Below, piece after piece: positions 18,952 to 45,665 of a stretch of DNA of 64,000 nucleotides. This stretch comes from Sporobolomyces roseus (lineage: Eukaryota; Basidiomycota; Microbotryomycetes; Sporidiobolales; Sporidiobolaceae). The translations under genes and the position numbers were made by a program. The notes beneath the pieces are model-generated. The model searched no databases. It was not told the origin of the DNA and saw only the letters and a list, made by a program, of their open reading frames with translations. Each line of letters begins with the position of its first letter. Within the stretch, counting starts at the first letter, position 1. The DNA lies in contig JADILM010000004.1 in the NCBI GenBank assembly GCA_016617785.1, forward strand, positions 1,984,001-2,048,000. Direction: 5' to 3'.

Positions 18952-19548
18952 CCGAGTTGAGGGTGATGAGGAGGGAGGAACGAGAGAGGAGGACAGAGAG
19001 GAAGAGAAGAAGTGTGGCTCGACGCGTTCCGAGGGGAGAGAGGCGGATATAGCTGTTTCAGAGAGCTTGATAACCTACTATCAAACGTGTTTGAAGTATC
19101 CGGTGAAGTGGAAGAAGGACAAGAAACGCAATTCGTCTCAAAGTTGTTTTCTCCCTTCAACCTTTCACTCTTCTTTCGCTTGGATCAATTCGAAACCTTT
19201 CGACTATCAATAACATCATCAAAGTGAGTCTGTCAATGATCTCGGCTCGCTCTGACGGGACGCGAGGGAGAAAACCTGGATCCGAGATGGAATCGTGCAA
19301 AGGGCTCAAGCAGGGAGAGAGGCTCTCTAGAGGAATAGTGGATAGGGTTCGTAGAGCGGGAGACTGTATGTTCGGTGGTGTTCAAGGGCGTCAGACTCAG
19401 TCAGAGGGAAGGGGAAGAGTGATCTCTCCCCTTGATTCGCTCGAATCCTCGTTTGTACTTCAGTCTCGCAGCTATACAACTCTGCACCCCTTCGAGACTA
19501 CAATCCACTGACAAAACTTGACCTCGCAGCTTCGATCGCCTGCTGCAA
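18952..19548 (+). other. DCC1 promoter and P3 leader remnant
   Basis: This holds the DCC1 upstream region and, on the plus strand, a P3 leader with a donor-like CAAAGTGAGTCTGTC near 19215. That resembles the CAAGGTGAGTCT leader junction of P4 and P6. The outer left limit of the inverted duplication probably falls here. No other gene is seen. Confidence 0.4.
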
Positions 19549-20892
19549 ATGATACTTCCGACTGAAACCCTCGATCTCGTCTTTTCGTAAATTCACCTTA
19601 GAAGTGCTCCTCCTACAGGTTAGTCTAGCCTGTCTCTCGATTCCCTCCTGCTCAGAGCTGATGTGAAGAGTGCCGCAGCCGTATCTCAAGCTACCTTCTC
19701 TTCCCTCTGCCTCACCTCGAAACATTTCCTCCCTCTCGCTCGAGAATACCTCTACTATCGTCCGCTCAATCTCGACAAGGGAATCAACTGGGAGAAGGCT
19801 TTCGCATTTCTCAAGACTCTCGAGTCGACAAACTCTCTCCACGCTCGACTCGTCCGCTCACTGGAAGATCTCTCAGCTTACATGATCTTGCTCGACGAAC
19901 TTCCCCATCTCAAACTCCTCTCCGTCTAGTTGATACGCCGAGACCGTCGACTCTCTGCCGTAGTATTGTTCTGTATCAGTCTCATCAAGCTCTGCCCCAA
20001 GCTACAGAGCATAGGCCTCAACTTCACTTCCTCCCACGAGTTCGACCACATCGTTCAAGCACTGCAAGGTTCTTCGTCAGCACCCACGGTCGTCATTCTC
20101 GAAACTAGCGGCAACAACAACCTGAATGGTCGGATTCTCACGCTTTACTCGTTTACATCGCTCTCAGTCATCCTTCCCTTCCAAAATATCAAACAGCTCA
20201 AATTGATCGAGATCGAACTAGCAACCACTGCAACTCTCCCTTCCCCAACTATCTTTCTACCTCTGACATCACTCAACATCCATGAAGACTACGGTTACCT
20301 CAAAAGCGTCAAGCAATTCTTCGTGGCAAGCTCCGTATCACTCGTCGAATTCGTCATCCACCTCGTAAATCTCACTAGTTCCGACGTCGACTGGATCCTC
20401 AAGCCGCTTCCCGTCACTCTCAAGAAACTTCTCATCTCGCACCACGCAAGATTCGAACGCACTCACGGTCGCCCTTCCTTAACGAATTACGCTCGAAACC
20501 ATTCTCTCCCGAACATTCCGCTCGACACCATCTCCCGATTCACGTGCCTTCACACTCTCAAACTCAACGATTTCCAAGGTCCATCCCTCGCTTTTCTTTG
20601 CGTTCCCTCGACCACTTCTTCATCGTTATCGAGAATCGACTTTGCCAGCTCCTTTTGGATCGGCGATAAGCTTCCTCCCGTACCGAGCGGGATGGGCTGG
20701 AGGGGGGAGGGTTTCCCTCGCAGGAAGATCCAGAAGGTACTCGAAGCACTCCAACGCCTCGACTTGATTCATTTCGGATGGTTACCGACTCGAGATCGCA
20801 ATTACTATCGAGAGTTGATTTCGAATCTCAACGACAGAGGTGTCACAGCGGAATGGGTTGAATGTCGTCCCATGAAAGTACAGCGAGGGTGA
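19549..20892 (+). pseudogene. F-box/LRR-like P3, disrupted by two in-frame stops
   Basis: The frame starts MILPTETLDLVFS and meets a TAA at 19588-19590, where relatives have a sense codon (P7 has Gln). After the expected intron it continues SQATFSSLCLTSKHFLPLA. A TAG at 19927-19929 then interrupts the same frame between LPHLKLLSV and IRRDRRLSAVVLFCI. The remaining 320 codons are open, with typical family repeats (FTCLHTLKLNDFQGPSLAFL) and the end EWVECRPMKVQRG. That end matches DWMECRPKKV in P7, its mirror partner. Splicing does not remove either stop without breaking the frame. It is probably a pseudogene. Two sequencing errors are a less likely explanation. Confidence 0.78.
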
Positions 20893-21344
20893 AGGAAGTA
20901 TCGAAGGAGGTTGGGAAGGGAAGGGGAAAGAGGGAAAGAAGGACTCAAAGTCGAGGGAAGAGGGAAAAAGTTTGGCGTTCGTGTACGCAAACGTTCTTCT
21001 GAATTTCATGTCACGTGCGATGCTTTCAATCCTTTTCTGCACTGTTGGGCGATCTCGGTCAAATTCGGATTGCTGAAACGAGACTTCAGATTGAGCGAGG
21101 AATTTCTCCTCTTCGTTTTCGCTCGGCAGATTCAATCTCTTCTATTGAGCTTAACTCAGAGAGAGCTTTAGTGTGACTATTCGTTAAACTTCGAGAACGA
21201 GTCTCGAAATCGCACGAATCGTCGATGCGATGAAACTGAACACTGTTATTTTCACTGCTTTCCCCGCCTACGCGATTCGCCTCCCTTCTGACAAGACCAA
21301 GTTGATGAACGGGAATTCTGATCTAAATCCCCTTCGAAAATCAA
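20893..21344. other. Converging 3' ends of P3 and the left dehydrogenase
   Basis: A purine-rich spacer of about 450 bases lies between converging genes. It corresponds to 43151-43613 on the right arm. No gene is recognised. Confidence 0.4.
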
Positions 21345-22489
21345 TCACCGTGGAAGTTCGGAACCATCGTAATTTACAAATCGACCATTGTCTCCCTTTG
21401 TCACAGCGTGGAAGATGTTCTTGGTTCTGCGCACTCGACAGGTTTCATTCAGTATCGTCGATGATAGATGTCTCGAGGGAAGAAAAAATAGAACGCACGC
21501 TAGAGCGCAAGCTTCGGAAGTTTCAAAGTCCCCTCCTCCGTCAGAGTTCATATCAGTCTTGACGTATCCGGGATGGAAAGCTGATGGAGAATCATCAGGA
21601 TAGGATCGAATTCAGTCAAGTTAGGATAGACAAGAGGGAGAGAAAGAGTGAAAGATGCGAAGGAATGGGAGAAACAATAAAGCTGAGACTCACGAACGAC
21701 GGTGAATCCTTCTCCAGCGAGCTCACGAGCGAGTTTGACAGTGTACATATTAACGGCAGCCTTCGAGATTGCGTCTACACAAACGCGAGAGAACGGGGTT
21801 CAGTTCGAGCTTTCCTTCGCAAAATTGGAAAAAGGAAAGTCAACTCACAAGCACTAGCAGCTGGAGATTGGCTGGTAACGGGACCTCCGATACTTCCGAC
21901 AATCGAAGAAGTGACAAAGATCTGCTTCTTTCCTTGAGTGTTCTCCTTCAAGAGAGGGAGAAAAGCGTTGACAGTATTGATCACTCCATAGAGATTGGTT
22001 TTCAGATTATAGGATAGTTCTTCTTCCGAGCTATGTTTGAAGGATTCAATACTGCGAGCACCGAACTGAGAGCAATAGTGAGGGAAAACTGACAATTGCG
22101 ACGATGTTTTCCATCCACCTCCATTCACTCCTGCGTTGGCCAACACGGCGTCTAGTCCTTTCCCGTCACTCAAGAATCCCGAATCTTTGAGCTCTTTAGC
22201 AGCAGCCTGCGAGGACAGACGACAGAGTCAGATCAGCTCTTGCGTCTCGAAAGATATCTTGCGAAACGAGGCTTACTTGAGTCGATTCAGCTTCGTTGAC
22301 ATCGCATTTGAGAATGTGTAGACGGTCCTTGCCGAACTCCTTCGTAAGAGGCTCGAGTTGATCCGCCTTTGAGGGGTTTCGAACAGCAGCGACGACTCGA
22401 GTTTGAGGTGAAGATGCGAGAAGTTCTTTCGCGTATCCCAATCCGAGGGAACGAGAGGAACCGGTGATCAAGTAGGTTGTGGTAGACAT
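21345..22489 (-). CDS. Short-chain dehydrogenase/reductase, left copy
   Basis: Starts MSTTTYLITGSSRSLGLG, with the NAD(P)-binding TGxxxGxG pattern at residues 9-18. Next come CDVNEAESTQ, DAVLANAGV (the NAG motif), and a segment with VTSSIVGSIGG followed by YAISKAAVNMY, which carries the catalytic Tyr and Lys. The C-terminal exons give FHPGYVKTD and GRFVNYDGSELPR. About six introns follow the usual consensus. Size (about 250 residues) and motifs fit classical SDRs, close to the C-factor-like fungal group. The substrate is unknown. The mirror copy at 42006-43150 is very similar and both look intact. The junction before FHPGYVKT differs: the left copy uses an acceptor giving VVPFHPG, about six residues shorter than the right copy. 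Confidence 0.87.
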
Positions 22490-23281
22490 TGTCGAATGAA
22501 TGTAGAGTGTGGAAGTAAGAGTGTGAGAGTGGCAGTGAATGATGGAAGAGAGAGAAGTGAGGAAGAAAGAGAACGAGTTTGACTGATTAGCTTCGTCGAC
22601 GAGGATGATAAAGCTTCGGATATTGCTTTGATCAAAACTTCGGACATGGTCAACTACAAGATTTCGGATATCAAGCTTGCGAAAGATCCAGACTCGACAA
22701 AAAACTAAGCGAAAGTTGTGAAGACCCGACGACGAGAAGACGAAGGACCGAATCAAGAGGGTCAGATTGGGGAGACTGTAGGAAGCTCCAAGGCACAGTA
22801 TACGGCTCTGAAGAGGGATCTGATCAAATTTGTGAGTTTGTGTAACTTGCGAAGAAATCGCGACCTTTCGAAAGACTCTAACTTAATCTGAGAGTATTCA
22901 CCTTTCACTTCAACCTCTCGCTTTGATCGACTCGAATACCTCGATCTTCAAGTTGAACGCTCAAGGTGAGTCTGCTACTGGTCTCAGCGGTCCCTGAGGG
23001 CTAGCGAGGGAAAGCTAGACTGGAGATGAGGCGCCGAGGAGGTTCAGGAAAGAGCGAGGGAGACTCTAGGGAAGGCGGAGAGGGCATTAGTAGCCTATAG
23101 CTAGGTACTGGAGACTATCGAAGGGCTATAGAGGTCGACAGCGGAGAGGAAACGAGTGATCTCTTTGGTTGATTCTGCCCCAATCTGGTTTGCATTCGAG
23201 TGCAGCTGCTATGCCAAACTACTTGCTTTCGATGCGCGAATGCTGACCCACCTTGATCTCACAGACTCGAACCAGATCAAA
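22490..23281 (+). other. Divergent SDR/P4 control region with P4 leader exon and intron
   Basis: This holds the SDR promoter on the left and the P4 leader on the right. The leader exon ends at about 22965 (CTCAAG before GTGAGT). An intron of about 299 bases ends at CACAG (23264), shortly before the P4 ATG. The leader shares CTCGCTTTGATCGACTCGAA with the P4' and P6 leaders. No protein-coding gene is seen. Confidence 0.55.
22615..22671 (-). promoter_or_regulatory. Three ATRTCCGAA elements 24 bases apart, left SDR promoter
   Basis: On the plus strand TTCGGATAT is at 22615-22623, TTCGGACAT at 22639-22647 and TTCGGATAT at 22663-22671. The start-to-start spacing is exactly 24 bases. The array lies about 125-180 bases upstream of the left SDR start. 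The same array with the same spacing is kept on the right arm, suggesting binding sites for a transcription factor. CCG/CGG cores are typical of Zn2Cys6 regulators, but the factor is unknown. Confidence 0.6.
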
Positions 23282-24645
23282 ATGATGCTTCCGACAGAAT
23301 TACTTGTTCTCATATTCTCCTTCGTTCAAGCCAAAGATTCGACTCCAACTCGTGAGTCTGCCTTGTTCGCGTTGCACGTTGTCCACGTTGATCCAACCAT
23401 AGCAATACAGACGATTCACAGAGAACTCTCGCTTCACTCGCTCTCACCTCGAGAAACTTCCTCCCACTTGCTCGAGAACACCTTTACACCCGTCCTCTCG
23501 TCGCCCTCAAGTCCGAAGCATCCTGGTTCAAGGCAGTCAAGCTTGCTGGTACACTCGCTGAGAGTCGACTCGGCGGAATGGTTCGTGATCTCGTCGGTCT
23601 CGTAACCTGGATGAACGTACTTCGACAAGGCGAACCAGCTGCTCAACTCCCTTACCAAGCTCAAGGTTGTAGCTCAGCCTACTCATGGACTCTTCAGATG
23701 CTCAGCCTCTGTCCACGTCTCGCTCGAACGGATCTGTTCTTCACCTCACAATTCGACTTGAACCTCGTCCTCAAGGCGATCGAACCTTCTGCCTCGACCC
23801 TTCGTTCTATCAGGTTCAGAACAGTATCACGCCTAGACGGATCTCGATCAACCCTTCTCACACCGCTGAGATACGTAGAGTCTGCCCTCCGTAGCCCGGT
23901 CCTTCGTCGAATCTGCCGACTTACTCTCGTCGATGTATACGACACATCTTCTCAGACCGCCCGTTCTCTGATTGCGCCCAGCCTCTCGTCACTTCTCATT
24001 CACGAGGCGGTGGGGAAATCAAACTTACTGCAACTCATCCCCGAAAATCTCTCGATGCTTCGTTACCTCTCCCTCCGAACCCAAACGAATCGACCTTTTC
24101 CTCCCGACCTTTCGCCCATTTTCGCTCGACTCACCTCCAGCATACAAGAGATCTCTTTCGTCACCTTTGCCCGCTTCACCATCGCACCGGCACTATCTCA
24201 ATATCTTCTCCCTTCGCCGTCGACTCCCATCATTCCTCTCGAACATTTCCTTCGCTTCCCAAACCTTCGCTCCCTCCAACTCTGCGGATTTATCGGTCCA
24301 TCTCTCTCCCTCCTCCAACAGCTCGCTTCGTCTTGCCCGCTTCTTTCCCTCATCGACTTCGAGGAATCTTTTTGGATCTCGAACGATTCTACCCTCGGTT
24401 ACTCCGCAACCGATCTCTACTACGAAGCGATCTTCCCTGAGGACTGCATCACCCTCGAATTCAAGAAGCTCTCGAAACTTCGAGAGCTCAATCTGGGCTA
24501 CCTACCGACCTCGGATCCTTCGAAATTCAGCAAGTTGGAGAAATCGATGAAAGAACGGAGCATCAAGCTTACTTGGACGATGTGTCGCGGTGCAAGACAG
24601 ATGTGCGGATGCGGCTATTACCATTATGACGAAGACAGTGATTGA
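23282..24645 (+). CDS. F-box/LRR-like protein P4
   Basis: Exon 1 encodes MMLPTELLVLIFSFVQAKDS. After one intron (GTGAGT to ATACAG) the frame continues DSQRTLASLALTSRNFLPLA and REHLYTRPLV, completing an F-box pattern. Leucine-rich repeats follow, including LCPRLARTDLFFTSQFDLNL, NLRSLQLCGFIGPSLSLLQQ and SLIDFEESFWISND. It ends with a Cys/Tyr-rich tail, RQMCGCGYYHYDEDSD. The frame is open throughout. Its mirror partner P4' (39901-41215) is closely related but lacks the tail because of a stop. Likely a substrate receptor of an SCF ubiquitin ligase, by family only. Confidence 0.78.
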
Positions 24646-25229
24646 TGTTAGTTGGAACGGCAAGTTGAGGTGAGAGAAGGAAACAACAAGGAAAAGAAAC
24701 AACGCTTGAATTGGGAAGGAACGCTTGAGAAACGCTTGAGAACTGTCGAGGGTAGTTGTAGTTGTGCAATGGCTTTACGAATCTTGCTTCTTGTTCGCTT
24801 GACAAGCGAAAGTAAGCGAACTCATCGAAACTATTTCGCAGCGAACTTCGGGAGTCGAGGTTCAGCGATATATCGCAGGAATCGCTCAGCATATCACACA
24901 GGTCAGCCTGTCGTCGAACTCATTTGGCCCGAGTCATCGGAGGGAAAGTTTGCGATGAGTTTGAGCGAAAACCGACTTGCCTTTCCACTCTTCACTTTGT
25001 CTCTCGCTTTGATCGACTCGAATACCTCAAGCATTCGACTTTGCTCTCAAGGTGAGTCTACTACAGCTATTATCGATCCTCGAGGTATAGTCAGGGACAA
25101 ATTAGAAAGCGAAGATGAGCGTAGAACATCGGATCAAAGGGCAGCGAGGAGGTCTAGCTGGAGTGTGGGGGAGATGTAGAGAGTATAACATACTCCCGAG
25201 GAGACTATTGAAGGTCTCAGAGACTCGGA
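24646..25229 (+). other. P4 3' end and P6 leader region, left arm
   Basis: This matches the P6' leader and the P4'-P6' spacer on the right arm (about 39270-39800). A leader exon ends in CTCAAG before GTGAGTCTACTACAGCT near 25050. The P6 protein start that should follow has been lost with the internal deletion described for the next feature. Confidence 0.5.
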
Positions 25230-25483
25230 CGAGCGGAATAGTGATCGATACTTCCTCCTCCCTCAACCTCGACAAGAACTCTCTCTCCCGCTCAGAGGAA
25301 TTGGAGAGTACGTTGGAAAGGTTCAAGCATCTCAAGAAGCTCGATCTCGGCGTCCTCCCAACGACGAACCAACAAGCTTACGACTCGGTCAAGATTGGAT
25401 TGGAAGAGCGAGGGGTCGAAGTCGAGTGGAAGTGCTGTCGTGCACTCTTGCGTTGTCCTGTGTGTCAGACTATGCATGGATGA
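25230..25483 (+). pseudogene. P6 remnant: last ~60 codons of an F-box/LRR-like gene
   Basis: The open frame ELESTLERFKHLKKLDLGVL then PTTNQQAYDSVKIGLEERGV matches the C-terminus of P6' (FKKLSKVDLGVLPTSDRQAY). It ends in CPVCQTMHG, as P6' ends in CTRCGKDHA. In front of it, sequence matching the P6' leader (AAGAACTCTCTCTCCCG) runs up to about 25297. The F-box and nearly all repeats, about 1.1-1.2 kb in P6', are therefore missing from this copy by an internal deletion. It is unlikely to make a working protein. Confidence 0.8.
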
Positions 25484-25773
25484 AGCTTGTCAGGGGTCAT
25501 TGATCAGGGAAGAGAAATCATTTAGCTTGACGAAGAAGTGAGGAAAGATTGAATCGCTTGCATTGTACTCTGTCCATACTCTCCTCGTCTGTCAGAGACT
25601 TCAATCGATCAGGAACAATCGAGCGAGAGAAGTGCGGATATTATCGACAACAAGCGAAGACAACAGAAATAACGAAAAGCGACAAAACATCACATCCCAC
25701 CGTTCAATACAACAAGCGTTCCCCTCCTGGCTGCGCTTCCTCACCTCCGCGCATCGACCCAACATTTCCTCGA

Positions 25774-27415
25774 TCAATTATCTCCATCGACATTGAAAGC
25801 TGGCACGAAGAGCGTCAAAACACCTCCCTGCAGATCATCTTTCGAATCTCCAACGTAAACGTAAAAGATCGCACAGTGTCCCGGACAGAGACCTGTAGCA
25901 GCTCGTTATGAGCTCAACACTTAAAAGAGCAAGGGAAGACTCACAGAAGATCGTTGTTTGAGCGATAGAGTAAGAAGCGAGGAATTTGAGCAAATTCTTC
26001 GTTTCCACCGTTACCGAGAATCGCTGATTCGGATCTTCTTGACCGTTCAGGGGATCACCTTCTATATGAGTAAAGTGTCAGTAAGGGTGAACGGGAGGCG
26101 AGACGAGATCAAGGCCAAGGAGAGGAGAGGAACGAGAATGATGAGAAGAGAAGAAAGGTTGAACTCACCTTCATCTTCTCCCAGATTGGGTCGCTTCAGA
26201 TTCAACCATTCCGTTTCGACTTTCGCTTCATCCGCCTCAGCGCGCATCCTATCAGCATTACAACGGATGCGTCAGTCTCTTCCTTTGAGTCTCATTCGAT
26301 TCGCCCTTCGAAGCGTTCATGTGCTTGCTCGCGCTCAAGCTGAAGCGAGACCGATCAATCACGAGAGGATGATGTGAGAGAGCTGAACGTACTGAAAGAG
26401 TCCAGCGTTGTTTGCTGACAAAGTGATGACAGGTGAAATCGTCTTCATTCGTTCTGCCACGGTTCGAAGGATCTGAAGCGGTGGAAGAAGGAGTGCTGCC
26501 TGTTATACGGGAGAAAAAAAAGACAATCAGTCATACGATCAGAGTTGCTGAGCTGGAGAGGAGAGAAGAGACTAAGACGGAGATGTCCGAGAGCAAGTGA
26601 AAGAGGGAAGAAGGCGATGGCGAGAGAAGTCGGAGAGGAAGAGAAGCGAGAGCGCGACGTACATCGGGAGCAGGACAGAGAGGTTCCTTCAATTGTTCGA
26701 CATCTTCTAGCTTCTTCACCTTGACGAAGACATCTTGAGTGATTTCTAGACGTTTTCCCATTCGACTCTGCGATAGTCGGTCTCTGGTCAGTCTCGCGGC
26801 GCAGGGTCGCGAGAGTCGCAGATATAGACCCGCAGCACTCTCTATGACGATCGACAAGACAGGATGAGCTCCTTTACCTGTTCCTCCAGGTCCTTCTCCT
26901 CCTTTCTTCGCTAGTTTGATCGTTGCTTTCGTCGATCCCTGCGTACCTTGAGCTGTCAATCCAAAGTCCGTGTGAGGAAGAGTGACAGTTGACTCACAGC
27001 TGCAGACTTGAGTGCTCTTGCGAGTGCATCGGTCGCTACTTCGAGATAGATTTCGTTTGAAGAATTGGATTCGAGTCTGAAAGTTTCAATCTTGAAGATA
27101 GAGTTCTGCACGGTTCGAGCTCTGTCGTCAGATCGACGATTACTTGTTCGAGAGGTAGATAGAGTAGCTCACCACAGCGATTTGACTGAATCGAGGGAAG
27201 AAAAGCGAAGAGAAATAGTTAGTTTGCTCTTCGAATAGATTGCTGAATATCGTCCTGACTTACCTCCATACTTGTATTCCACCTCTCTCTCCCTGACAGA
27301 TCAGATGAATCGCATCGGCCTTCAGTTTGAGAGTTGCGACTTTGGACAAAGGAGCGAGAGAAGTGATCAACCGAGTCAATTGAGTAGTGTTTGAAATGTC
27401 GGCTCGGAACCGCAT
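25774..27415 (-). CDS. HUS1: Checkpoint clamp subunit Hus1, left copy
   Basis: Starts MRFRADISNTTQLTRLITSL. Exons then give HLICQGERGGIQVW, ETFRLESNSSNEIYLEVATD, STKATIKLAKKGGEGPGGTG, SRMGKRLEITQDVFVKVKKL and EPLCPAPD. These are followed by a proline/leucine helix with ERMKTISPVITLSANNAGLF, and by FSVTVETKNLLKFLASYSIA. The last exon gives the PGHCAIFYVYVGDSKDDLQ segment and FVPAFNVDGDN. The order and spacing fit Hus1, a PCNA-like ring subunit of the 9-1-1 (Rad9-Hus1-Rad1) clamp loaded at DNA damage. About eight introns are needed. The gene is divergent from P5. A second intact copy lies at 35915-37566. Confidence 0.9.
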
Positions 27416-27873: not shown

Positions 27874-29207
27874 ATGACGATTCCTACTCTTCCTGAAGAT
27901 GTTCTCGAAATCATTTTCGATTTCGTTCATGACAAATCCGCTGCTCCCACCGGTACGGGACCTCAATCACTTGCTTGAGCCATACTCAGAGATACTCACA
28001 CGCTCTCCGTCTAGTCGAATCTCAAGGGACCTTCAGTTCTCTCTGCCTCGTCTCGAAAACTTTCCTTCCCCTCGCTCGCGTTCGACTCTACTATCGTCCT
28101 TTCCGATCGGAGGACGATTCCTCTCGAAACGTCAAGAGAATCATCAATACCTTACAGACCGCTATATCCCTCCGCCCCCTCGTCCGCATACTCCTCTCAC
28201 TCGGCTCCTCACCTTCATACCTTCCCCTATTCGATCTTTGTCCACACGTCGTCGCACTTGGGCTGGACTGCTCGTACGGTAAACCGACCAAGTCACAGCT
28301 ACTTGTCGCTCTCAAACCACTCATCGGAGTGCGCAAGCTCTCACTCGTATGCCCGACCTCGCCATCCTTCGACTGGCGTTCGTTCGCTCTCGAAATCCTC
28401 GCATTCCCCACCTTTGCCGCTTTGGAGGACCTTCTCATTGAGACCGGGCCAACAAACAATCAGCCTCTCCTGCATGCTCCAGTCCTTCTGCCGCTCAAAT
28501 CCCTTACTACCGATTCTCCATACGACACCTTAAGCTTCGAAACTATCGAGCCACTTCTCCCAGCCGATGTGACCCTTACGAAATCGCTTACTTTGAACGA
28601 AGTTCGATTCACGTCTATTGAGATGCAGAACCTCCTGGAAAGGTTGGGATCGACCATCGCTTCTCTTTCGCTCGGCGCGCGCCCAAACCGGAGCACGATC
28701 TTCGCCCGACCTTACAGGTCCGACCTGGATCTCCCTCACATACCCACTCTTCCCTTCACTCGCTTTCCAAACCTCGTCTCCCTCGCTCTTCCTCACACTC
28801 AAGGTCCTTCCCTTCGTTTATTGAAGACCCTCGCCTCCTCCTGCCGTCATCTCGTCGAACTCGATTTCTTCGGATCAGTCTGGACATCCGACGCTTCTTT
28901 ACCCCCAGATCTTACCGCACAAGAGCATTTCGACCTCGTCTTCCATCAGCAAGCCATTCTCTCCGCGCTCGAATCACTTCAGAAGCTCAAGAAGGTTACT
29001 TTAGGATGCTTGATGTATTCAGATGACACGCAAAAGTACGCCGAAATTGAGGATGTATTGGAAGGAAGAGGGATTGAAGTCGATTGGAATCCGGTCGATG
29101 CAGATGCAGACGACGCCATTTCCGATGAATACCACTACGAGGATGATGATGGCTTCCGAGGATTCCGCTTCAACTGTACGCAGGGTGGACCTAGGCTATC
29201 GTTTTGA
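27874..29207 (+). CDS. F-box/LRR-like protein P5, left copy
   Basis: Exon 1 encodes MTIPTLPEDVLEIIFDFVHD. The intron runs from GTACGG to TCTAG. The second exon reads VESQGTFSSLCLVSKTFLPL, a clear F-box. Repeats follow (RKLSLVCPTSPSFDWRSFAL, FPNLVSLALPHTQGPSLRLL, HLVELDFFGSVWTSDA). The C-terminus is acidic and then aromatic (DDAISDEYHYEDDDGF). The frame is open to the stop at 29205-29207. Bases 28038-28408 are about 99% identical to the mirror copy P5' while the following sequence is clearly diverged. Function is inferred only from the family: substrate recognition in an SCF complex. Confidence 0.8.
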
Positions 29208-35914: not shown

Positions 35915-37566
35915 ATGCGGTTCCGAGCCGACATTTCAAACACTACTCAATTGACTCGGTTGATCACTTCTCTCGCTCCTTTATCGAAAGTTGCAACTCT
36001 CAAACTGAAAGCAGATGCGGTTCATTTGATCTGTCAGGGAGAGAGAGGTGGAGTACAAGTATGGAGGTAAGCTCAAGACGCTTTTATTCCGTCTGTCTGA
36101 GAAGGAATTGCCCATTTCTTTCGTTTCTTCTTTCCTCCATTCAGTCAGATCGCTGTGGTGAGCTACTCTAGCTATGTCTTGAACCAAGTGCTCACAGCGA
36201 CTGACGATTACTGCCTCGCTGCACAGAACTCTATCTTCAAGATTGAAACTTTCAGACTCGAATCCAATTCTTCCAACGAAATCTATCTCGAGGTAGCTAC
36301 CGATGCGCTCGCGAGAGCACTCAAGTCTGCTGCTGTGAGTCAACTTTTCCTCTATCTCGCACGCTTCCTGTACTGACAGCTCAAGGTACGCAGGGATCGA
36401 CGAAAGCAACGATCAAATTGGCAAAGAAAGGGGGAGAAGGACCTGGAGGAACTGGTAAAGGAGCTCACCCTGTCTTGTCGATCGTTATAGAGAGTGCTGT
36501 GAGTCTCCTTCATCATCCTCCTCTGACTCTACGCTCCGAGACTGACCCGCTGATCGGGTATCGCAGAGTCGAATGGGAAAACGACTCGAGATTACTCAAG
36601 ATGTCTTCGTCAAGGTCAAGAAGCTAGAAGACGTTGAACAACTAAAGGAACCTCTCTGTCCTGCCCCAGATGTGCGTCTTCATCTCGCTCCTCGGATTCC
36701 TCGATTACTTTCGCCATCCTCTTTCTTCCTCGCTTCCTCCCACTCATTCCAATCGTTTCTTTCGATCTCGCCATCTCTCCTTCGAGACTTACTCGCCGCT
36801 CATGATACTGACCATCTCTTTGCTCTCCCGTATCCTAGGCCGCACTTCTCCTTCCACCCCTTCAAATCCTTCGAACCGTAGCAGAACGAATGAAGACGAT
36901 TTCACCCGTCATCACTTTGTCAGCAAACAACGCTGGACTCTTTCAGTACGTCCAACTTTCTCACATTTTCTCACCGTGATTGTTCGGCATGGCTCCGGTT
37001 CCAGCGCGAGCAAGAACTTGAACGCTTGAGAGTGCGAATCGAACGAGCCACGAACGAAGAGACTGACGCATCCCTTGTAACGCTGATAGGATGCGCGCTG
37101 AAGCGGATGAAGCGAAAGTTGAGACGGAATGGCTGAATCTGAAGAGACCGAATCTCGGGGACGATGGAGGTGAGTTCGACTGTTCCTCTCTTCTCATCAT
37201 TCTTATTCCTCTCCTCTTCTTCCCCTCGATCTCATCTGTCCTCCCGTTTACCCTTACTGATACTCTCAATGTATAAAAGGTGATCCCATGAATGGTCAAG
37301 AGGATCCGAATCAGCGATTCTCAGTAACGGTCGAAACGAAGAACTTGCTCAAATTCCTCGCTTCCTACTCTATCGCTCAGACTACAATCTTCTGTGAGTC
37401 TTCCCTTGCTCTTTTGATAAGTATTGAGCTCATAGAAAATCCCTTAGGTCTTTGTCCCGGACACTGTGCGATTTTTTATGTTTACGTTGGAGATTCGAAA
37501 GATGATCTCCAAGGAGGTGTTTTGACATTCTTTGTGCCAGCTTTCAACGTCGATGGTGATGATTGA
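35915..37566 (+). CDS. HUS1: Checkpoint clamp subunit Hus1, right copy
   Basis: Starts MRFRADISNTTQLTRLITSL and continues as the left copy does: HLICQGERGGVQVW, KIETFRLESNSSNEIYLEVA, GSTKATIKLAKKGGEGPGGT, SRMGKRLEITQDVFVKVKKL, EAKVETEWLNLKRPNLGDDG and QRFSVTVETKNLLKFLASYS. It ends with CAIFYVYVGDSKDDLQGGVL and FVPAFNVDGDD. The introns have diverged from the left copy but the encoded protein hardly has. In one 35-codon exon I count 11 synonymous and no amino-acid changes. Both copies therefore appear to be under selection to keep their protein. Hus1 is normally a single-copy 9-1-1 clamp gene, so a linked pair is unusual. Confidence 0.9.
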
Positions 37567-37825
37567 ACGGCGAGATGCTCGGTGAACAGGAGGAGGGGAA
37601 GGTAAGAGATAGCTAGCTGGTCGATCGATCTGTTGTGTACTTTTTTCGCTTTTCTTTCTTCGATTGTTGTCAACAATATCTGTGCTACTCTCGCTGCGCT
37701 TTCTCTCAAGAGTTTGATACAAATGTGAGCAAGCTATGTTCCGCTCGGGTCTGATCCCATCTCAAGCATCGTGAAGCTACTTTCGGGGTTCCACCTTTCT
37801 CCCCTCATCGGCCTCCTAAACTTCC

Positions 37826-39148
37826 TCAAGCGTGATCTTTACCACATCTCGTGCACCATGAATTCTTTCTGCAATACTCCCAGCCAAGTTCGATACCCCT
37901 GCGCTCCAACTCGCTCCTCACCGATTGATAAGCTTGACGATCGCTAGTGGGAAGCACCCCAAGATCCACCTTACTCAACTTCTTGAAACGTCCCAGTGCT
38001 GTGATCAATTCGTCTTCAAAACATGCAGTGCCGTGGACATTGAGCGAGGCGGGCTGATCCGACATAGGAGTGCCCGGTAAAATCCAGCGCGAGCCATGAA
38101 AGTCGATCACTTCAAGACGAGGGGAGGAAGTGGCGAGATGCACGAGAGCCTGAATCCAGTTGAAATGCTTGGACTGCGCGGTGATCGAGGTTAGGTTTGC
38201 GAGAGGCGGGAGATCAGCCGGATGAGGACCTCTAGAAATGAATCTGGAATACGATGCTAGGGTTGGTCGACATTCAGGCCGGGCGTAGTTTCTAGTGAGG
38301 TCGAGATAGCGAAGGGAGGGAGCTAGGGAGATGAGGAGGGCGCGAAAATCGGTAAAGGCGGCGGCAAGATGTAGGCTTTCGAATCGGGAGAGGTCAACGA
38401 GATTGAAGCCATTCAGGTGAACGTCGGAGAATCCCGAATGGAGTTGAAGGTGCTTGATCGCATTCGTAATGCGAGTTGTACTAGTGAATTTGATGTTTTC
38501 GAGTCGGACTCTTTCGACGTTGCGGAATGGTCGACGGTCGAGCGTCCTTTTGACGCTATCGCTCGTCAAGCGCGTGAAAGGCGGAAGTGATCCCTCGTAA
38601 AGATTCGTGAAGGTGACATTCTGTGGAGTCGAGCCTGAGACCGAAAGAGCGGTGTCGATTCTGTCGAGTTCTTCCCGGCTTTCGAAGTAGATGTCGACCT
38701 CATGGAGCTGAGGACACGCTTGCAACATAGTGAGGTACCAGGTAGTCGATTCGGTGCATCCAGTAATTCGGGGTGTAGTTGGGGGAGGGGGGAAATTCGC
38801 GAGCCTGCGACGTGAAGGCGCGATTCCCTTTAGCGTTACGACAAGGCGTCCGAGGCTGCTCGACATGAGAGTATTGGCCAAATCACTAGCTCTGAACCAG
38901 GGAAACGAGGGATTTTCGACGAGCGGACGGGAGTAAAGACGAATGCGAGCTGGAGAAACGAATTGTTTCGAGGTGCGAGCGAGGGAAGCGAGACTTTGTT
39001 GCGAGGAGGCTGCCGTAGCAAGTTTCTCATCAGTGACAGCGACAATAGGAGGAGAGTAAGTGAACTCACAAGTAGGAAGAGAACACTCCGTTTGAATGAG
39101 ATCGAAAATCAAGTCGAGAATTTCGAGAGGAAGAGTAGGAGCTGACAT
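37826..39148 (-). CDS. F-box/LRR-like protein P6'
   Basis: Exon 1 encodes MSAPTLPLEILDLIFDLIQT. The intron runs from GTGAGT to ACGGCAG. The frame continues SQQSLASLARTSKQFVSPAR and RIRLYSRPLV, an F-box. Repeats include ACPQLHEVDIYFESREELDR, SLRYLDLTRNYARPECRPTL and RLEVIDFHGSRWILPG. The end SWCTRCGKDHA has a C-x2-C-x3-H pattern that the left remnant shares as CPVCQTMH, perhaps a small metal-binding knuckle. This is the only complete P6 in the window, since its left partner is reduced to about 60 codons. Function beyond F-box membership is unknown. Confidence 0.78.
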   Translation of the reverse strand: MSAPTLPLEILDLIFDLIQTECSLPTCEFTYSPPIVAVTDEKLATAASSQQSLASLARTSKQFVSPARIRLYSRPLVENPSFPWFRASDLANTLMSSSLGRLVVTLKGIAPSRRRLANFPPPPTTPRITGCTESTTWYLTMLQACPQLHEVDIYFESREELDRIDTALSVSGSTPQNVTFTNLYEGSLPPFTRLTSDSVKRTLDRRPFRNVERVRLENIKFTSTTRITNAIKHLQLHSGFSDVHLNGFNLVDLSRFESLHLAAAFTDFRALLISLAPSLRYLDLTRNYARPECRPTLASYSRFISRGPHPADLPPLANLTSITAQSKHFNWIQALVHLATSSPRLEVIDFHGSRWILPGTPMSDQPASLNVHGTACFEDELITALGRFKKLSKVDLGVLPTSDRQAYQSVRSELERRGIELGWEYCRKNSWCTRCGKDHA

Positions 39149-39900
39149 GTCTGTGGCATGAAGAAGAGGGTAAAGTTCAGCTTACTAGCTACTGTCGAGC
39201 TCAACTGAGTCGGGAGAGAGAGTTCTTCTTCGTTTGAGAGAGGAGGAAGCAGCGATCACTATCCCGCTCATCCGACGCTGCGAGACCTCCTGTAGCCTCC
39301 TTGGAAGTATACTAGACTATCTGGATATACTCCACGCTCCAGCTAGACCTCCTCGCTGCCCTTTGCTCCGATATTCTTCGCTCATCTCTGGTTTCTGATT
39401 TCTCCCTGACTATACCTTTTGGATCGATGAGAGCTGTAGTAGACTCACCTTTAAAAGTAGATCGACTGCTTGCGTGATTCGAATCGACCAAAGCGAGAGA
39501 CAAAGTGAAGAGAGGAAATGCAAGTTGTTCCTTCGCTCAAATCCATTGCAAAGTTTCCCTTCGCCGAGCAAGTTCGGTTCAGCGACAGACCGACCTCTGT
39601 GATATGCTAGACGCTTTCCATCTTAGCGAAATGATTGCTGAACCTTGACTTCTAATGCTTGTTGCGAAATGCTTCTCTGGAATTCGCTATACTTTCGCTT
39701 GTCAATTGAACAAGAAGCAAGATTCGTAAAGCCATTGCACAGCTACAACTACCCTCGACAGTTCTCAAGCTTTTCTCGCGCGTTCCTTCCCAATTCAAGC
39801 GTTGTTTTTTTTCCTCCTTCTTCTCTCCCCTCAACTCCCCATTCCAGTTCAATCAATCACTATATTCGTAATCATGGTAGCTGCCACATCCACACATGGT
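39149..39900 (-). other. P6' leader and P4'-P6' spacer, right arm
   Basis: This holds the P6' promoter and a minus-strand leader whose exon/intron junction reads AAAGGTGAGTCTACTACAGC near 39450, matching the left arm near 25050. At its right end, 39853-39900 holds the untranslated remnant of the P4 C-terminal tail. No other gene is seen. Confidence 0.5.
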
Positions 39901-41215
39901 TCATGCACCGCGACACTTCGTCCAAGTAAGCTTGACCTTTCTTTCTCTCATCGATTTCTCCAACTTGCTGAATTTCGAAGGATCCGAGGTCGGTAGGTAG
40001 CCGAGATTGAGCTCTCGAAGTTTCGAGAGCTTCTTGAATTCGAGGATGATGCGGTCCTCAGGGAAGATCGCTTCGTAGTAGAGATCGGTTGCGGAGTAAG
40101 CGAGGGTAGAATCGTTGGAGATCCAAAAAGATTCCTTAAAATCGATGAGGGAAAGAAGCGGGCAAGATGCAGAGAGCTGTTGGAGGAGTGAAAGAGATGG
40201 ACCGATGAAGCCGCAGAGTCGGAGGGAGCGGAGGTTTGGGAAGCGGAGGAAATGTTCGGGAGGAATGATGGGAGTCGACGGGGAAGAGTGAAGATACTGA
40301 GATAGTTCTGGTGCGAGGGCGAAGCGGGTAAGGGTGATAAAAGAGATCTCTTGTATGCTGGCAGTGAGTCGAGCGAAGATGGGCGAAAGGTTGGGAGGAA
40401 AAAGGTGATTCGATTTGGTTCGGAGGGAGAGGTGACGAAGCATTGGAAGATCTTCGGGGATGAGTTGCAGCAAGTTCGTTTGTCTCGCAGTTTCGTGGAT
40501 GAGGAGTGATGAGAGCCTCGGCGCGACGAGAGTGCGGGCGGTTTGAAGTGGTGAATCGTAAATATCGACGAGAGTAAGTCGGCTGACCCGACGAAGGACT
40601 GGGCTACGGAGGGCGGACTCCACGTACTTGAGCGGTGTAAGAAGGATCGGATGAGAATGCGAATATGGTACCGTTTTGAACCTGATGGAACGGAGGGTCG
40701 CGGCAGAAGGTCCAATCGCCTCAAGGGCGAGGTTCAATTCGTATTCAGAGGAGAAGAACAGATCGGTTCGAACGAGACGTGGACAGAGGCTGAGCATCTC
40801 AAGGAACCACGAGTAGGCGGAGCTACAACCTTGAGCTTGGTAAGGGAGTCGAGAAAGAGGTTCGCTTTGTCGAAGAACGTTGATCCAGGTTGCGAGACCG
40901 ACGAGAGTGTGGACCATTTCGCCAAGTCTACTTCCAGCGAGTGTTTCGGCAAGCTTGACTGCCTTGGCCCAGGATACTATTGACTTGGAGACGACGAGCG
41001 GATGGGTGTAAAGGTGTTCTCGAGCGAGTGGGAGGAAGCTTCTCGAGGTGAGAGCCAGTGAAGCGAGAGTTCCCTGTGATTCGTCTGCATCGCTGCATTC
41101 GGATCAGCGTGAAACTTGGCCAGCGAGCGAGCGAGAGAGACTCACGAGTCGGAGTCGAATCTTTGGCTTGAACGAAGGAGAATATGAGAACGAGTAATTC
41201 TGTCGGAAGCATCAT
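39901..41215 (-). CDS. F-box/LRR-like protein P4', lacking the C-terminal tail
   Basis: Starts MMLPTELLVLIFSFVQAKDS. The intron ends at GATGCAG and the frame continues ESQGTLASLALTSRSFLPLA. It matches P4 throughout (SLCPRLVRTDLFFSSEYELN, NLRSLRLCGFIGPSLSLLQQ, SLIDFKESFWISND). It ends at TKCRGA because a TGA at 39901-39903 stands where P4 has AGA (Arg). After that stop the frame would still encode 15 residues with TMCGCGSYHDYE before the ancestral stop at 39853-39855. The tail is thus lost by one nonsense change, while the F-box and repeats are intact. Whether this matters to function is unknown. Confidence 0.75.
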
Positions 41216-42005
41216 TTTGATCTTCTTTGAGTCTGTGAGGTCAAGGTAGGTCAGCATTCGCGTAATAGAAGCAGTTTGCTCGGTATAGCAGGTGCCCTCG
41301 AATGCAGACGAAATTCGAGTGGAATCAACCAAAGAGATCACTCGTTTCCTCCCCGCTGTCGACCTCTATAGCCCTTCGATAGTCTCCAGTACCTGGCTAT
41401 AAGCTATCCATAACACCCCCGCCATTCGTAGAGTCTCTCTCGCGCTTCCCTAACCCATCTCATCACCTCATCTCCAGACCAGCTTTCTTCCCTTGCTAGC
41501 CCTCGGAGACCGCTGAGACCAGTATCGGGCTCACCTTGAGAGTTCTTTCGAGTGATTAAGGTATTCGAGTCGATCAAAGCGAGAGGTTGAAGTGAAAAGC
41601 ACCTACTCTCAGATTTCGAGTCTTTCGAAAGTTCATGATTTCTGCGCAAGTTTCACAAGCTCACAGATTTGATCAGATTCCTGTATAGAGCCGTATACTA
41701 TTCACTTCCCTTGAGCTCCCTACCGCCTCTCGAAGCCGACTGCGATTCGGTCCTTCGTCTGCTCGTCTTCGGGTCTTCGCAACTTTCGCTTAATTTTTTG
41801 TCGAGTCTGGATCTTTCGTAAGTCTGATATCCGAAATCTTGTAGCTGACCATGTCCGAAGTTTTGATCAAAGCAATATCCGAAGCTTTATCATCCTCGTC
41901 GACGAAGCTAATCAGTCAAACTCGTTCTCTTTTCTTCCTCACTTCTCTCTCTTCCATCGCTTACACTCTCACACTTTAACTTCCACAATCTGCATCCATT
42001 CGACA
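41216..42005. other. Divergent P4'/SDR control region, right arm
   Basis: Mirror of 22490-23281. It holds the P4' leader exon and leader intron on the minus strand (CTCAAG before GTGAGCCCG near 41540) and the right SDR promoter. Conserved words shared with the left arm include GACTATCGAAGGGCTATAGA and GTGATCTCTTTGGTTGATTC. No coding gene is seen. Confidence 0.5.
41827..41883 (+). promoter_or_regulatory. Three ATRTCCGAA elements 24 bases apart, right SDR promoter
   Basis: ATATCCGAA lies at 41827-41835, ATGTCCGAA at 41851-41859 and ATATCCGAA at 41875-41883, about 120-180 bases upstream of the right SDR start. Order and 24-base spacing are the same as on the left arm. Confidence 0.6.
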
Positions 42006-43150
42006 ATGTCTACCACGACCTACTTGATCACTGGTTCCTCTCGTTCCCTTGGATTAGGATACGCGAAAGAACTTCTCGCATCTTCACCTCAAACTCGAGT
42101 CGTCGCTGCTGTTCGAGACCCCTCAAAGGCGGATCAACTCGAGCCTCTCACGAAGGAGTTCGGCAAGGACCGTCTATACATCCTCAGATGCGATGTCAAC
42201 GAAGCTGCATCGACTCAAGTAAGTGTTTTCGCGCTCTTTTCTGAAAGGCGAGGCCATTTACTGATTCGTACCTCATCGACGTCCATAGACTGCTGCGAAG
42301 GAACTGAGGGAGAGCGGATTCTTGAGTGAAGGGAGAGGATTAGATGCGGTTCTAGCGAACGCAGGAGTGTTGGGAGGAGGTTGGAATCCTCCCTCTCAGT
42401 TGTAAGTCGCATCCTCTCGCTCGTATACTCTCCTGTACCATTGCTGATTTGTCTCGTCGACGACTCAGTACGAAAGAGGATCTCACGTACAACTTGAAGA
42501 CCAATCTCTTTGGAGTGATCAACACTGTCAACGCTTTCCTTCCTCTTTTGAAGGAGAATAAAGAAGGAAAGAAACAGATCTTCGTTACTACTTCAATTTT
42601 GGGAAGTATCGGAGGTCCCGTCACTAGCCAATCTCCAGCTGCTAGTGCTTGTGAGTTGACTTTACTTTTTCCAATTTTGCGAACGAAGGAAAGCTCGAAC
42701 TGAACCCGTTCTCTCGCCCTTGTGTAGACGCAATTTCGAAGGCTGCCGTCAATATGTACACTGTCAAACTCGCTCGAGAACTCGCTGAAGAAGGTTTCAC
42801 CGTCGTTCGTGAGTTTGAGCTTTTCTCGTTTTCGTCTCGACTTTCTGCGTCTCGACTGCTCGTGAACATGTCATAGTCACGAGAGCTGACCCACAGCATT
42901 CGCATCCTCTGCAGCTTTCCACCCTGGATACGTCAAGACCGACTTGAACACTGATGGAGGAGGAGATATCGAGTCTGCCGAAGCTTGTGCTCTCGCGTAG
43001 GTTCACCTCTTGCTCCTCTCATGGCTCCAATGATGTGAGTGACTGATGATATACTTTTAATTGCACAGAACGAAGAACGTCTTCCTCGCGGCGAAGAAAG
43101 AAGACAACGGTCGATTTATGGTTCTCGACGGATCAGAATTGCCTTGGTAA
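42006..43150 (+). CDS. Short-chain dehydrogenase/reductase, right copy
   Basis: Starts MSTTTYLITGSSRSLGLGYA with the TGxxxGxG cofactor motif. It continues RVVAAVRDPSKADQLEPLTK and LYILRCDVNEAASTQ, then DAVLANAGVLGGGW (NAG motif), FVTTSILGSIGGPVTS, and the catalytic YAISKAAVNMYTVKLARELA. C-terminal exons read FASSAAFHPGYVKTDLNTDG and EDNGRFMVLDGSELPW. All introns have standard ends. It is a classical SDR oxidoreductase, probably cytosolic, with unknown substrate. It differs from the left copy mainly by a longer exon before FHPGYVKT and by scattered changes near the C-terminus. Confidence 0.88.
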
Positions 43151-43613
43151 ATCGACCGTCTCTATTTCGAGCGATAAGCGGCAACCGGACAAGTCGACTC
43201 CAGCGACGAGATTAGGAAGGGAAGCGCGACGGAGAAGAGGTTTCTGGTAGTTTTCGAAATAGTTATTAATATGCATGAAAGTTCTGCGTCATTCTGTGGC
43301 TTTCCGCCTCTTTTGTGTCGACAAGCTACATTTCCCGACATCGAGATTAGAATACAGCTCTTTTCCGAGGAAGTCTGACTGTAGCTGTGTCGATTCTACA
43401 GCCAATAGGTTCAATCATTTCCACGGCGACGATAAGAGCTCAATGTCTCTCTCATCTTCTCGTCGCCGACATGACCGTATGTGGTCATACAGCTCGGGTC
43501 GACTCCTGCTGCTACGCGACAATTCAAGAAGTGCTCTTCCGCTCTCAAGAAAGTCGAGTTTCTCAGGTCCTCGCGCCGACTAATCTCATCCTCGACATAA
43601 CCTGCTGATTGCA
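43151..43613. other. Converging 3' ends of the right SDR and P7
   Basis: A spacer of about 460 bases between converging genes, the counterpart of 20893-21344. It shows no gene or repeat. Confidence 0.4.
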
Positions 43614-44980
43614 TCAGTTCCTACGCTTCCCCCGGAGGTCACCGCTACCGTCATAGCCCCACGGTAATTCCACTTTCTTTGGTCTACACTCCATCCAATC
43701 AGCCCTGATCCCTCGTTCTCGCAACTTGTCAACTAAATCTTCGTAATCCTCTCGGCGAGAAGTAGGAAGATAACCGAAGTGGATATCATGGAGAGAAGGA
43801 AAGGTGCAGAGAGTGTCGTAAATCTCAGTTGAAGGGAACATAGATTCGGGAGTGAGGAGAGCGGTTCGATCGTGCGGGATCCAATGAGAGTGAAGGAAGT
43901 CGATACTTTGTAAAGAAGGTGAAGACTTTGTGAGGGTTCGCAGAATAGCAAGCGAAGGGCCTTGGAACCGGTGGAGAGTGAGAGTTTGGAGGGATGTGAA
44001 GCGGCATAGGGAATCGAGCGGAAAATTGGGATAATGTCGATCGTCGGAGTAGTTTTTCATCGACGGCCGACGGTTGACACGCTTGTCGTAGGTGACATAG
44101 GCGATTGAAAGGCGGCGAAGGGTGGTGGATAGGCGATTCAGGAGAGGAATGAGATCGAGGGCGGAGTACGTGAGATCTTTGTTGAAGGAGAGGCTGAATT
44201 TGACGAGGGATGATGGAATAAGTGGTCGCAACCACCCAACCGTTGGCGTGTACCCTCGAACACGTATTGTCTTGAGGGGTAGCTGTGTGGGAGGGAGCTC
44301 GACAACCGAGTTTTCGAAGAGAGGATCGATTTCAGTGATAGTGAGGGCTTCGACGTGACGGAAGAGCGGATGTTTGAGTAGTTCATGTACGAGTGACTGT
44401 TGCGAATTTTGTAGACGAAGAGTCTTGATCGTGGCGGCTGAAATCTGGAGTGATTGCGCGACTTTCGCGAGTTGTTCGGGTTTGCGCAAGGCGAGTGCGA
44501 GGGTTCGGAGATTGCTGCAGATTTCGAGTAGCCGGTGAAGGTAATCGTGCGAGTCACGATACTTCGAGATCAATGGAAATTGCGATCGGTTGAAATAGTT
44601 AACGTCGTGATACCCGACTCTGAGGCCGACGAAAATGGTGATGACATCTTCTAGAGAGCCGACGAGAAGCGAGAGAGGTGGTTGTAGTTGTTGTAGAACA
44701 GGGAGGAGGTCGAGGGATTTCTCCCAAAGAGCGATTGCTCTCCCGGGACCGAAAGGGGCGATAGTAGAGGTGTTCTCGAGCGAGAGGGAGGAATGATTTC
44801 GAGGTAAGGCAGAGGGAAGAGAAGGCCGTTTGTGATTCGACTGTACAGTACTAGATTATCAGCTTCAATAGGGAGAACTTGGAATGAAGACGAATGCTTA
44901 CAGGTAGGAGCAGAGGTTTTGTCGTGAATTTGCGAAAAGACAAGATCCAAAACCTCACGAGGCAAGTCGCGAATGCTCAT
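43614..44980 (-). pseudogene. F-box/LRR-like P7 with a frameshift near its start
   Basis: Exon 1 reads MSIRDLPREVLDLVFSQIHD. After an intron the frame continues ESQTAFSSLCLTSKSFLPLA and EHLYYRPF. At 44751-44757 (CGCCCCTTTCGG on the minus strand) the homologous frame shifts by one base. In the shifted frame it goes on GPGRAIALWEKSLDLLPVLQ and is then open for over 350 codons with family repeats (FTSLQTLTLHRFQGPSLAIL). It ends DWMECRPKKVELPWG. No intron with usual signals absorbs the shift. It is therefore probably inactive, but a single base error in the assembly would also explain it. It is the mirror partner of P3. Confidence 0.6.
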
Positions 44981-45665
44981 ATCTGCGTAGCCGAGGATTC
45001 ATGGTCAGTACAGCTTGTCTGGCGTGGTAACCGAATCGATTCGCTCCTCCAAGTTGACCCTTCCCTCAATCCGAAAAGTCGTGATCTCTTGTCGTTTCCA
45101 GCTCTGCTCGTGAACTTGAAGGATATCATTAGGTCATGATAGCGGTAGCAGGCCACTCCCACCGCTCTTCTACAACGTGAAAGCCTTTCGCTAACCCATT
45201 CCTTCCTAGAAACCTTTCCCTTGCTCTTTCTCCCTCACCTCGCCTCTGCTAAGCTTCGGACTAGAGCTAGACTCACTTGAGAGATCTCTACTATGCTCGT
45301 ATCCTCCGTCTTGATCCTTTTGGAGTTTGAGAGTTGAAGGTCTTGGTTCAACTTTTCTCTCTCTTTCGCTTTCTCCTTCCTTCCCTTGACTTTCCTCAAC
45401 CTCTAGACTCTCCCAGAGATATACGATGCTTCGGATACATAGATTAGATGCTGATCAATTTACTCGGGCAGTCGATTATCTAGCTTCGGAGACTCGACTT
45501 GGTTGAACCCGAGACCGTTTCGCTGAATCCATTTCACCGTTAGTCTCATCGGGCTCTCTCTTACTTAGCTTCGGAGACTCGCAAAGATCTACAAAAGTTC
45601 ACTCTGATCCAACTCCTACTCCCTCTTCTTCTCTTCATTCCTCACTCTTCACTCTTCCCTCAAGA
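44981..45665. promoter_or_regulatory. P7 leader and MFS exporter promoter
   Basis: A divergent region of about 685 bases. The minus-strand side holds the P7 leader (CTCAAG before GTGAGTCTAGCTC near 45275). The plus-strand side holds the MFS promoter with the TTCGGA-containing repeats listed separately. The right edge of the inverted duplication falls near 45350. Confidence 0.5.
45481..45581. promoter_or_regulatory. Direct repeat TAGCTTCGGAGACTCG upstream of the MFS gene
   Basis: The 16-base word TAGCTTCGGAGACTCG occurs exactly at 45481-45496 and 45566-45581, 85 bases apart and 85-185 bases before the start codon. A related GCTTCGGATAC is at about 45428. The TTCGGA core is shared with the SDR promoter array. 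It is a plausible binding site for a Zn2Cys6-type regulator of the exporter. Confidence 0.5.

Follow-up and report, generated by a model that had tools for sequence, protein, structure and literature searches.

The palindromes of the human Y chromosome, such as P6, have arms that are >99.9% identical, undergo GC-biased conversion, and invert the spacer between them as a crossover product (PMC3723533). Of 15 linked collinear gene blocks in the parthenogenetic springtail Folsomia candida, 11 are palindromic, inverted blocks outnumbering direct ones, with gene families amplified there and conversion proposed, and 17 palindromic cases are cited for the rotifer Adineta vaga in the same account (PMC5490193). 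A fungal example is the large palindrome, flanked by Copia elements, in an inserted region of Zymoseptoria tritici chromosome 14 (PMC3681731), and one route to such structures is known from budding yeast, where foldback inverted duplications form at double-strand breaks in repair-defective laboratory cells by way of dicentric intermediates (PMC10622511). Here we analyze a mirror-image duplication of an 8- to 9-kb block with the genes SDR, P4, HUS1, and P5 around a 4.9-kb core in a basidiomycete yeast, probably a Sporobolomyces close to Sporobolomyces roseus, within a stretch of 64,000 nucleotides (C4:1984001-2048000; hereafter the window) of a 22.4-Mb genome in 15 contigs.

The locus is a variant of the known converting palindromes, set apart by incomplete homogenization, the lack of GC bias, its place in an F-box cluster at a chromosome end, and a measured orientation bias. 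It shares with the Y palindromes the inverted arms and arm-to-arm conversion, the latter read here from patterns in the DNA, but identity is 80-91% overall with islands at 100%. As in F. candida, inverted linked gene blocks exceed direct ones, although here they belong to one fungal F-box/LRR cluster in which tracts and orientation were measured. The Z. tritici palindrome resembles it in being fungal, chromosomal, and large, whereas the present one lies in a gene cluster between conserved genes; and the yeast foldbacks offer a route to inverted duplications, but the duplication here is interstitial and foldback is only a candidate for its origin. As a compact fungal case, the locus makes repeat orientation, distance, and conversion measurable together in dozens of paralogs, offers a test of whether palindromes accumulate because direct repeats self-delete, and includes a conserved DNA-damage checkpoint gene, HUS1, that was duplicated as a passenger and is kept under selection in two copies.

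A mirrored gene block in an F-box/LRR cluster

The original prediction, made from the letters of the window, described a mirror of six gene units and expected an anti-diagonal in a self-comparison. BLASTN of the window against itself returned this anti-diagonal as two inverted matches, 21378-25295 versus 43117-39205 (3,969 columns, 81.4% identity, 3720 bits, E = 0.0) and 25757-29024 versus 37583-34306 (3,320 columns, 81.9% identity, 3156 bits, E = 0.0). The arms are about 82% identical in DNA overall, and only islands reach 98-100%. Each arm carries SDR, P4, HUS1, and P5, with their order reversed and their strands switched from one arm to the other; the intergenic DNA is mirrored too over 7-9 kb, and the foreseen divergence of gene starts is present in both arms for SDR/P4 and HUS1/P5. 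We placed the arm limits at the stop codons of SDR (outer) and P5 (inner), about where coding homology ends; beyond them the outer flanks of the two arms are unlike each other, and the P5 stops lie 4,879 bp apart, in agreement with the predicted core size. The locus thereby has the layout of a gene-converting palindrome, two inverted arms around a spacer, with one dispersed element in that spacer.

Two of the six proposed units do not belong to the mirror in the form first described. On the left, P6 is a remnant of which only the C-terminal end, about 65 to 70 codons, is recognizable, and the complete P6 frame on the right accounts for most of the extra length of that arm. P3 and P7, proposed as the outermost pair, do occupy mirrored positions but have other sisters in a tree of the family, a gene at C4:2061 kb for P7 (support 100/100) and a gene at C4:2101 kb for P3 (98/80), which rules them out as arm partners; in DNA, P3 and P7 share short pieces only (88 bp at 86%, 130 bp at 72%, and 44 bp at 77%).

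These P genes belong to a cluster of about 40 F-box/LRR genes with matches confined to the final 330 kb of C4, a contig of 2,126,566 bp whose terminus consists of TTAGGG telomere repeats. Three family queries gave 50 of 50, 46 of 46, and 49 of 49 genome matches within C4:1.797-2.103 Mb. A profile search of 332.5 kb found 47 family open reading frame (ORF) pieces, which we merged by hand into 38 genes, 19 per strand and with the P6 remnant counted in; two further members matched at C4:1962 and 1964 kb lie outside this set. The family tree was built from ORF pieces of ≥190 residues (39 of 47); one of two 1821-kb pieces was absent, giving 38, to which 6 of 8 P-family proteins were added (P0001 and P0007 left out), and its row g_1924km is an other-frame piece overlapping the 1923-kb gene. 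Among the papers listed in searches of the openly accessible literature, none described this cluster, a weak negative.

According to our splice models, neither arm lacks a complete, spliceable frame for HUS1 or for SDR. The Hus1 domain (PF04005) was matched over its full length in both HUS1 copies, which account for seven of the seven HUS1 matches in the genome. The copies have 293 of 300 residues in common, with a synonymous divergence (dS) of 0.38 and a nonsynonymous divergence (dN) of 0.010, and the resulting ratio of 0.03 indicates that both are kept by purifying selection. They share 284 and 286 of 300 residues with the S. roseus HUS1, and the right copy is 95% identical to that of S. roseus JCM5353 and 91% identical to that of Sporobolomyces ruberrimus. 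In a tree of 14 rows that used 12 of 105 homologs, left and right are sisters (97/96) with S. roseus next, a placement that indicates a single clade duplicated after the split from S. roseus, albeit one in which arm-to-arm conversion could make the copies appear younger than their true age. Intron 4 of the left copy (26768-26833) begins with a GC donor, in place of the GT found in the right copy; it is 66 bp long and open in frame, so its retention would add 22 residues.

Over the four gene pairs of the arms (SDR, P4, HUS1, and P5) dS ranges from 0.28 to 0.55. The SDR pair has a dS of 0.55 and a dN/dS ratio of 0.16, and P4 and P5 evolve faster, with ratios of 0.43 and 0.49.

Identity tracts and repeat orientation

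Identity is unevenly spread along the arms, as had been predicted. The longest identical run between left and right spans 150 columns, whereas no run in 1,000 column shuffles was longer than 74, and in seven of seven block alignments from the cluster the longest run (112 to 927 bp) exceeded those of all 500 shuffles. Silent sites show the same pattern: synonymous divergence along P5 ranges from about 0.05 to about 0.8, with 5 of 92 synonymous sites differing over codons 0 to 120 and 40 of 51 differing from codon 320 on. A mirrored block near 1.81 Mb likewise holds three gene pairs with dS values of 0.024, 0.30, and 0.65 (the 1797/1821 value covers 279 residues, from only one of the 1821 gene's two pieces). 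We attribute such contrasts within one block to gene conversion, since a single duplication date would not give them, and the proposal of an old event followed by patchy exchange is supported by both P5 and the comparison with shuffles. The longest run, 927 identical bases, joins two oppositely oriented family genes separated by 30 kb (L019 at C4:1878341 and L022 at C4:1908364) between flanks at 60-82% and points to a very recent exchange. None of this has brought the arms of the mirror near complete homogenization (>99%).

The tracts might instead reflect selective constraint, as coding sequence contains many of the runs and the 5' part of SDR is alike in all three copies of that gene, the third lying in a block at C4:2058-2065 kb. 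We consider constraint improbable: the silent sites of P5 track the tracts, the 927-bp run sits in a block with strongly diverged flanks, and the family at large shares only 20-36% of its residues with the member P1. For SDR itself, the left copy has a direct match of 1.7 kb at 79% to the third copy, and in two windows from 22525 left and right agree at 140 of 144 sites and right and third at 132 of 143, whereas elsewhere right and third are closer (240 sites versus 110), which weakly suggests an exchange between left and right SDR after the right and third copies split.

The mirror is one of five inverted blocks within 330 kb, two of them only gene-sized, so that the description of such repeats as uncommon in compact fungal genomes fails for this region. 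One mirror of three gene pairs is made up of 1795743-1799188/1824629-1821176 and 1805102-1809347/1821178-1816955; further blocks are 1877298-1879965/1910324-1907660 and 1905493-1908108/1925804-1923224; and another, 2025385-2031841/2064917-2058435, uses the right arm of the present mirror together with its outer flank. In the two self-BLASTN lists that gave these other blocks, seven of seven self-matches of ≥1 kb and ≥80% identity are inverted. Length cutoffs were 300 bp for the list of other blocks, 150 bp for the list with the 2025-2065 kb block and for the orientation control, and 90 bp in one further list. The family tree agrees: eight close sister pairs with branches up to 0.56 (1797/1821, 1806/1819, 1808/1817, 1878/1908, 1905/1923, P4, P5, and P7/2061), representing about five events, are all inverted, and among deeper two-gene forks P6/2099 is inverted and 2065/2097 and P3/2101 are direct.

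Orientation and similarity were then compared across the 332.5 kb. With simple sequence excluded, all 31 exact runs of ≥75 bp, 6,038 bases in total, are inverted and none is direct, and those of ≥28 bp number 155 inverted and 32 direct. Self-BLASTN matches of ≥150 bp with <80% identity are balanced in orientation (49 inverted, 54 direct) and serve as a control, and those with ≥85% identity are 4 inverted and 0 direct. Among gene pairs no more than 40 kb apart, 8 of 86 inverted pairs and 0 of 71 direct pairs contain a run of ≥50 bp (Fisher P = 0.0083).

Alternatives and proposed mechanism

The interpretation that we favor, at a probability of roughly 0.8, is that the mirror arose by inverted segmental duplication followed by gene conversion between its arms, with young direct copies in the cluster purged or never formed. 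A first alternative is that separate single-gene duplications produced the mirror by chance, without any one segmental event; the cluster is full of paralogs, and two of the other blocks do look like single genes with flanks at 60-84%. The mirroring of order, orientation, and intergenic DNA over 7-9 kb, with the non-F-box gene HUS1 included, leaves such a coincidence little room, and we rate it a shade below constraint.

An assembly artefact would have placed diverged haplotypes side by side or made a chimeric join; the haplotype version was raised by the original prediction, and such an artefact has in its favor that the arms are known from assembled sequence alone. We rate it as very unlikely. 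Both arms lie in one 2.13-Mb contig ending in telomere repeats, their outer flanks differ, the dS values given above and the purifying selection on HUS1 are those of two long-separated copies, and the four further inverted blocks have differing identities. In other public data, moreover, left P4 has a relative at 99.7% identity (P0115) and right P4 one at 95.9% (P0114); P1 is 99.5% identical to P0001, and the longest contigs of P0115 and P0001 both measure 25,136 bp and may be the same one, which would put the left arm in place there too. These observations indicate that the duplication is old and fixed and does not represent two haplotypes. Least probable of all is a mating-type or other sex-linked nonrecombining region, which inverted repeats and shuffled paralogs can resemble, as STE3 on C11 and Homeobox_KN on C8 each occur in one place and neither is on C4, ruling out the mating-type reading.

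Recombination between inverted repeats loses no DNA, its crossover product being an inversion, whereas recombination between direct repeats loses the DNA between them. Under segmental duplication with conversion, the segment SDR-P4-P6-HUS1-P5 would have been copied in inverted orientation after the split from S. roseus, leaving about 5 kb between the copies. The arms would then have diverged to about 82% and the left P6 lost all but its C terminus, while purifying selection kept both HUS1 copies and arm-to-arm conversion rewrote short tracts. This process would have recurred throughout the cluster, whose five inverted blocks include one built on the mirror's right arm. Copies in inverted orientation would go on converting, or cross over with inversion of the spacer only, and would survive because nothing is lost; direct copies would recombine and delete the intervening DNA. 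We infer that the tract rewriting is gene conversion and that direct pairs have been purged by deletion. The first copy may have formed by foldback at a break or when replication switched templates, and the palindromic amplification near a break mentioned in the original prediction may also apply. If copies were already formed preferentially in inverted orientation, through foldback synthesis as at the yeast breaks (PMC10622511) or through template switching, the outcome would look alike, and the data do not separate this from purging.

Several points weigh against this interpretation. The cluster counts cover 332.5 kb, with gaps of 14.5 kb and 18 kb within the last 330 kb left out, and gene order is known from one genome only. 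The gene-sized blocks 1877298/1910324 and 1905493/1925804 could reflect conversion without segmental duplication. Direct copies are also seen, with a 355-bp direct pair at 83% identity at C4:1760-1762 kb, outside the family cluster, and BLASTN matches at 80-85% identity that are balanced (6 direct, 5 inverted). Over all distances the contrast in gene pairs is 9 of 361 inverted versus 1 of 342 direct, the latter with a 71-bp run (P = 0.021), and for pairs within 15 kb and 75-bp runs it is not significant (2 of 26 versus 0 of 52; P = 0.11). Runs and pairs within one block are not independent, making these P values optimistic, and counted by blocks, five of five inverted is a weak sign test. GC content gives no sign of bias, at 0.506 in 52 windows of ≥95% identity versus 0.495 in 65 windows of <85% (P = 0.16). 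Finally, no junction was resolved and hence no scar of origin seen, 82% identity being too low to resolve one.

Feature coordinates, neighboring genes, and other contigs

Table 1. Features of the mirror and its surroundings (window positions)
Feature	Position	Strand	Details
Left arm, SDR to P5	21345..29207	+	BLASTN versus reverse of 34306-43117; gene ends
Right arm, P5' to SDR'	34087..43150	-	Self-BLASTN and gene ends
Core between arms	29208..34086	.	4,879 bp, P5 stop to P5 stop; own-genome search
P3	19624..20889	+	Family member outside mirror; in-frame stops
SDR left	21345..22489	-	6 exons, 250 residues; splice model
Identical run upstream of SDR	22541..22652	.	112 bp, with right arm
P4 left, main exon	23392..24642	+	F-box/LRR family
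P6 remnant, left arm	25106..25480	+	Open frame; only last 65-70 codons P6-like
HUS1 left	25774..27415	-	9 exons, 300 residues; splice model; intron 4 with GC donor
P5 left, main exon	27933..29207	+
Likely conversion tract in P5	28143..28409	.	Two runs identical to right arm, 95 and 150 bp
Dispersed element	29380..30673	.	1.3 kb; TGTCAGG...CCTGACA terminal inverted repeats
Cys-rich short ORF	31430..31620	-	Approximate limits; translation; no Pfam match
SYLF/Ysc84 gene	32200..33630	-	Multi-exon, approximate limits; PF04366, E = 1.8e-36; hand-joined exons
P5 right, main exon	34087..35325	-
HUS1 right	35915..37566	+	9 exons, 300 residues; splice model
P6 right, full frame	37829..39148	-	440 residues
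P4 right, main exon	39904..41103	-	F-box-like PF12937 with first exon; model pLDDT 79
Second inverted duplication	41385..47841	.	Right SDR, P7, MFS region; partner C4:2064917-2058435, 90.6%, 6.5 kb
SDR right	42006..43150	+	6 exons, 250 residues; splice model; adh_short, PF00106
P7	43617..44855	-	Family member outside left/right mirror; sister of C4:2061 kb gene

The core was only partly as predicted. Its SYLF gene was confirmed by Pfam, the metallothionein label has behind it a Cys-rich ORF that gave no Pfam match, and the claim that the core is single copy fails for the dispersed element, which has relatives on C6 (88%), C9 (77%), and C1 (83%), the last split in two. This element has AAATTTG-rich ends, and by eye the four copies are flanked by two-base repeats (TT or AA) that are probable target repeats. 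It gains no support as the cause of the mirror, as it starts 173 bp past the left P5 stop and lies more than 3 kb from the right one, with no copy found at an arm end.

With first exons joined by eye, right P4 matched the F-box-like domain PF12937 at 25.6 bits, above the cutoff of 24.3, and left P5 fell below it at 12.4; right P6 had no F-box match in the Pfam comparison. A model of the right P4 main exon built from 21 sequences had a predicted local distance difference test (pLDDT) score of 79 and a predicted template modeling (pTM) score of 0.80, and Foldseek placed NLRC4 first among PDB structures, with NLR, TLR, and F-box LRR proteins such as TIR1 and FBXL2 also among the hits at modest TM-scores (0.1-0.5); a single-sequence fold of P6 (pLDDT 36) was too low for use. 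P4 resembles FBXL-like proteins in its F-box-like domain and perhaps in an LRR-like fold, and may bind SKP1; it differs in that its family is fast evolving, with few matches outside Sporobolomyces and metagenomes among the candidates scored (8 and 5 matches among the best 7,992 and 7,995 candidates by common words). P3 has in-frame stops in both its F-box part and its main frame (19450-20889) and looks like a pseudogene.

F-box-like domains are present on other contigs as well, with at least 94 matches among the 150 of 210 candidates scored. From these 94 matches we chose by eye four pairs on the same contig with bit scores within 0.1 and the same profile range (C1:4.48-4.50 Mb, C5:113-139 kb, C9:769-786 kb, and C10:570-579 kb), and all four are inverted. 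A 120-base piece of the C9 pair is matched at exactly two places genome-wide, 16.6 kb apart on opposite strands and identical at 120 of 120 positions. We tentatively propose, while thinking it somewhat less likely to hold than to fail, that across the genome both the growth of F-box clusters and the sequence exchange within them go solely through inverted copies, direct ones being deleted by recombination, and that the clusters become strings of overlapping palindromes, each serving locally as an engine of conversion for genes of substrate recognition.

No tRNA gene and no Rfam family at gathering score was found in the window. Conserved genes are interspersed there among the family members, namely, those for DCC1, NAD synthase, tryptophan synthase, a Zds-C protein, and an MFS transporter. 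DCC1, which acts in sister chromatid cohesion, lies at 18370-19074, just outside the arm that carries the left HUS1, a proximity that is probably a coincidence.

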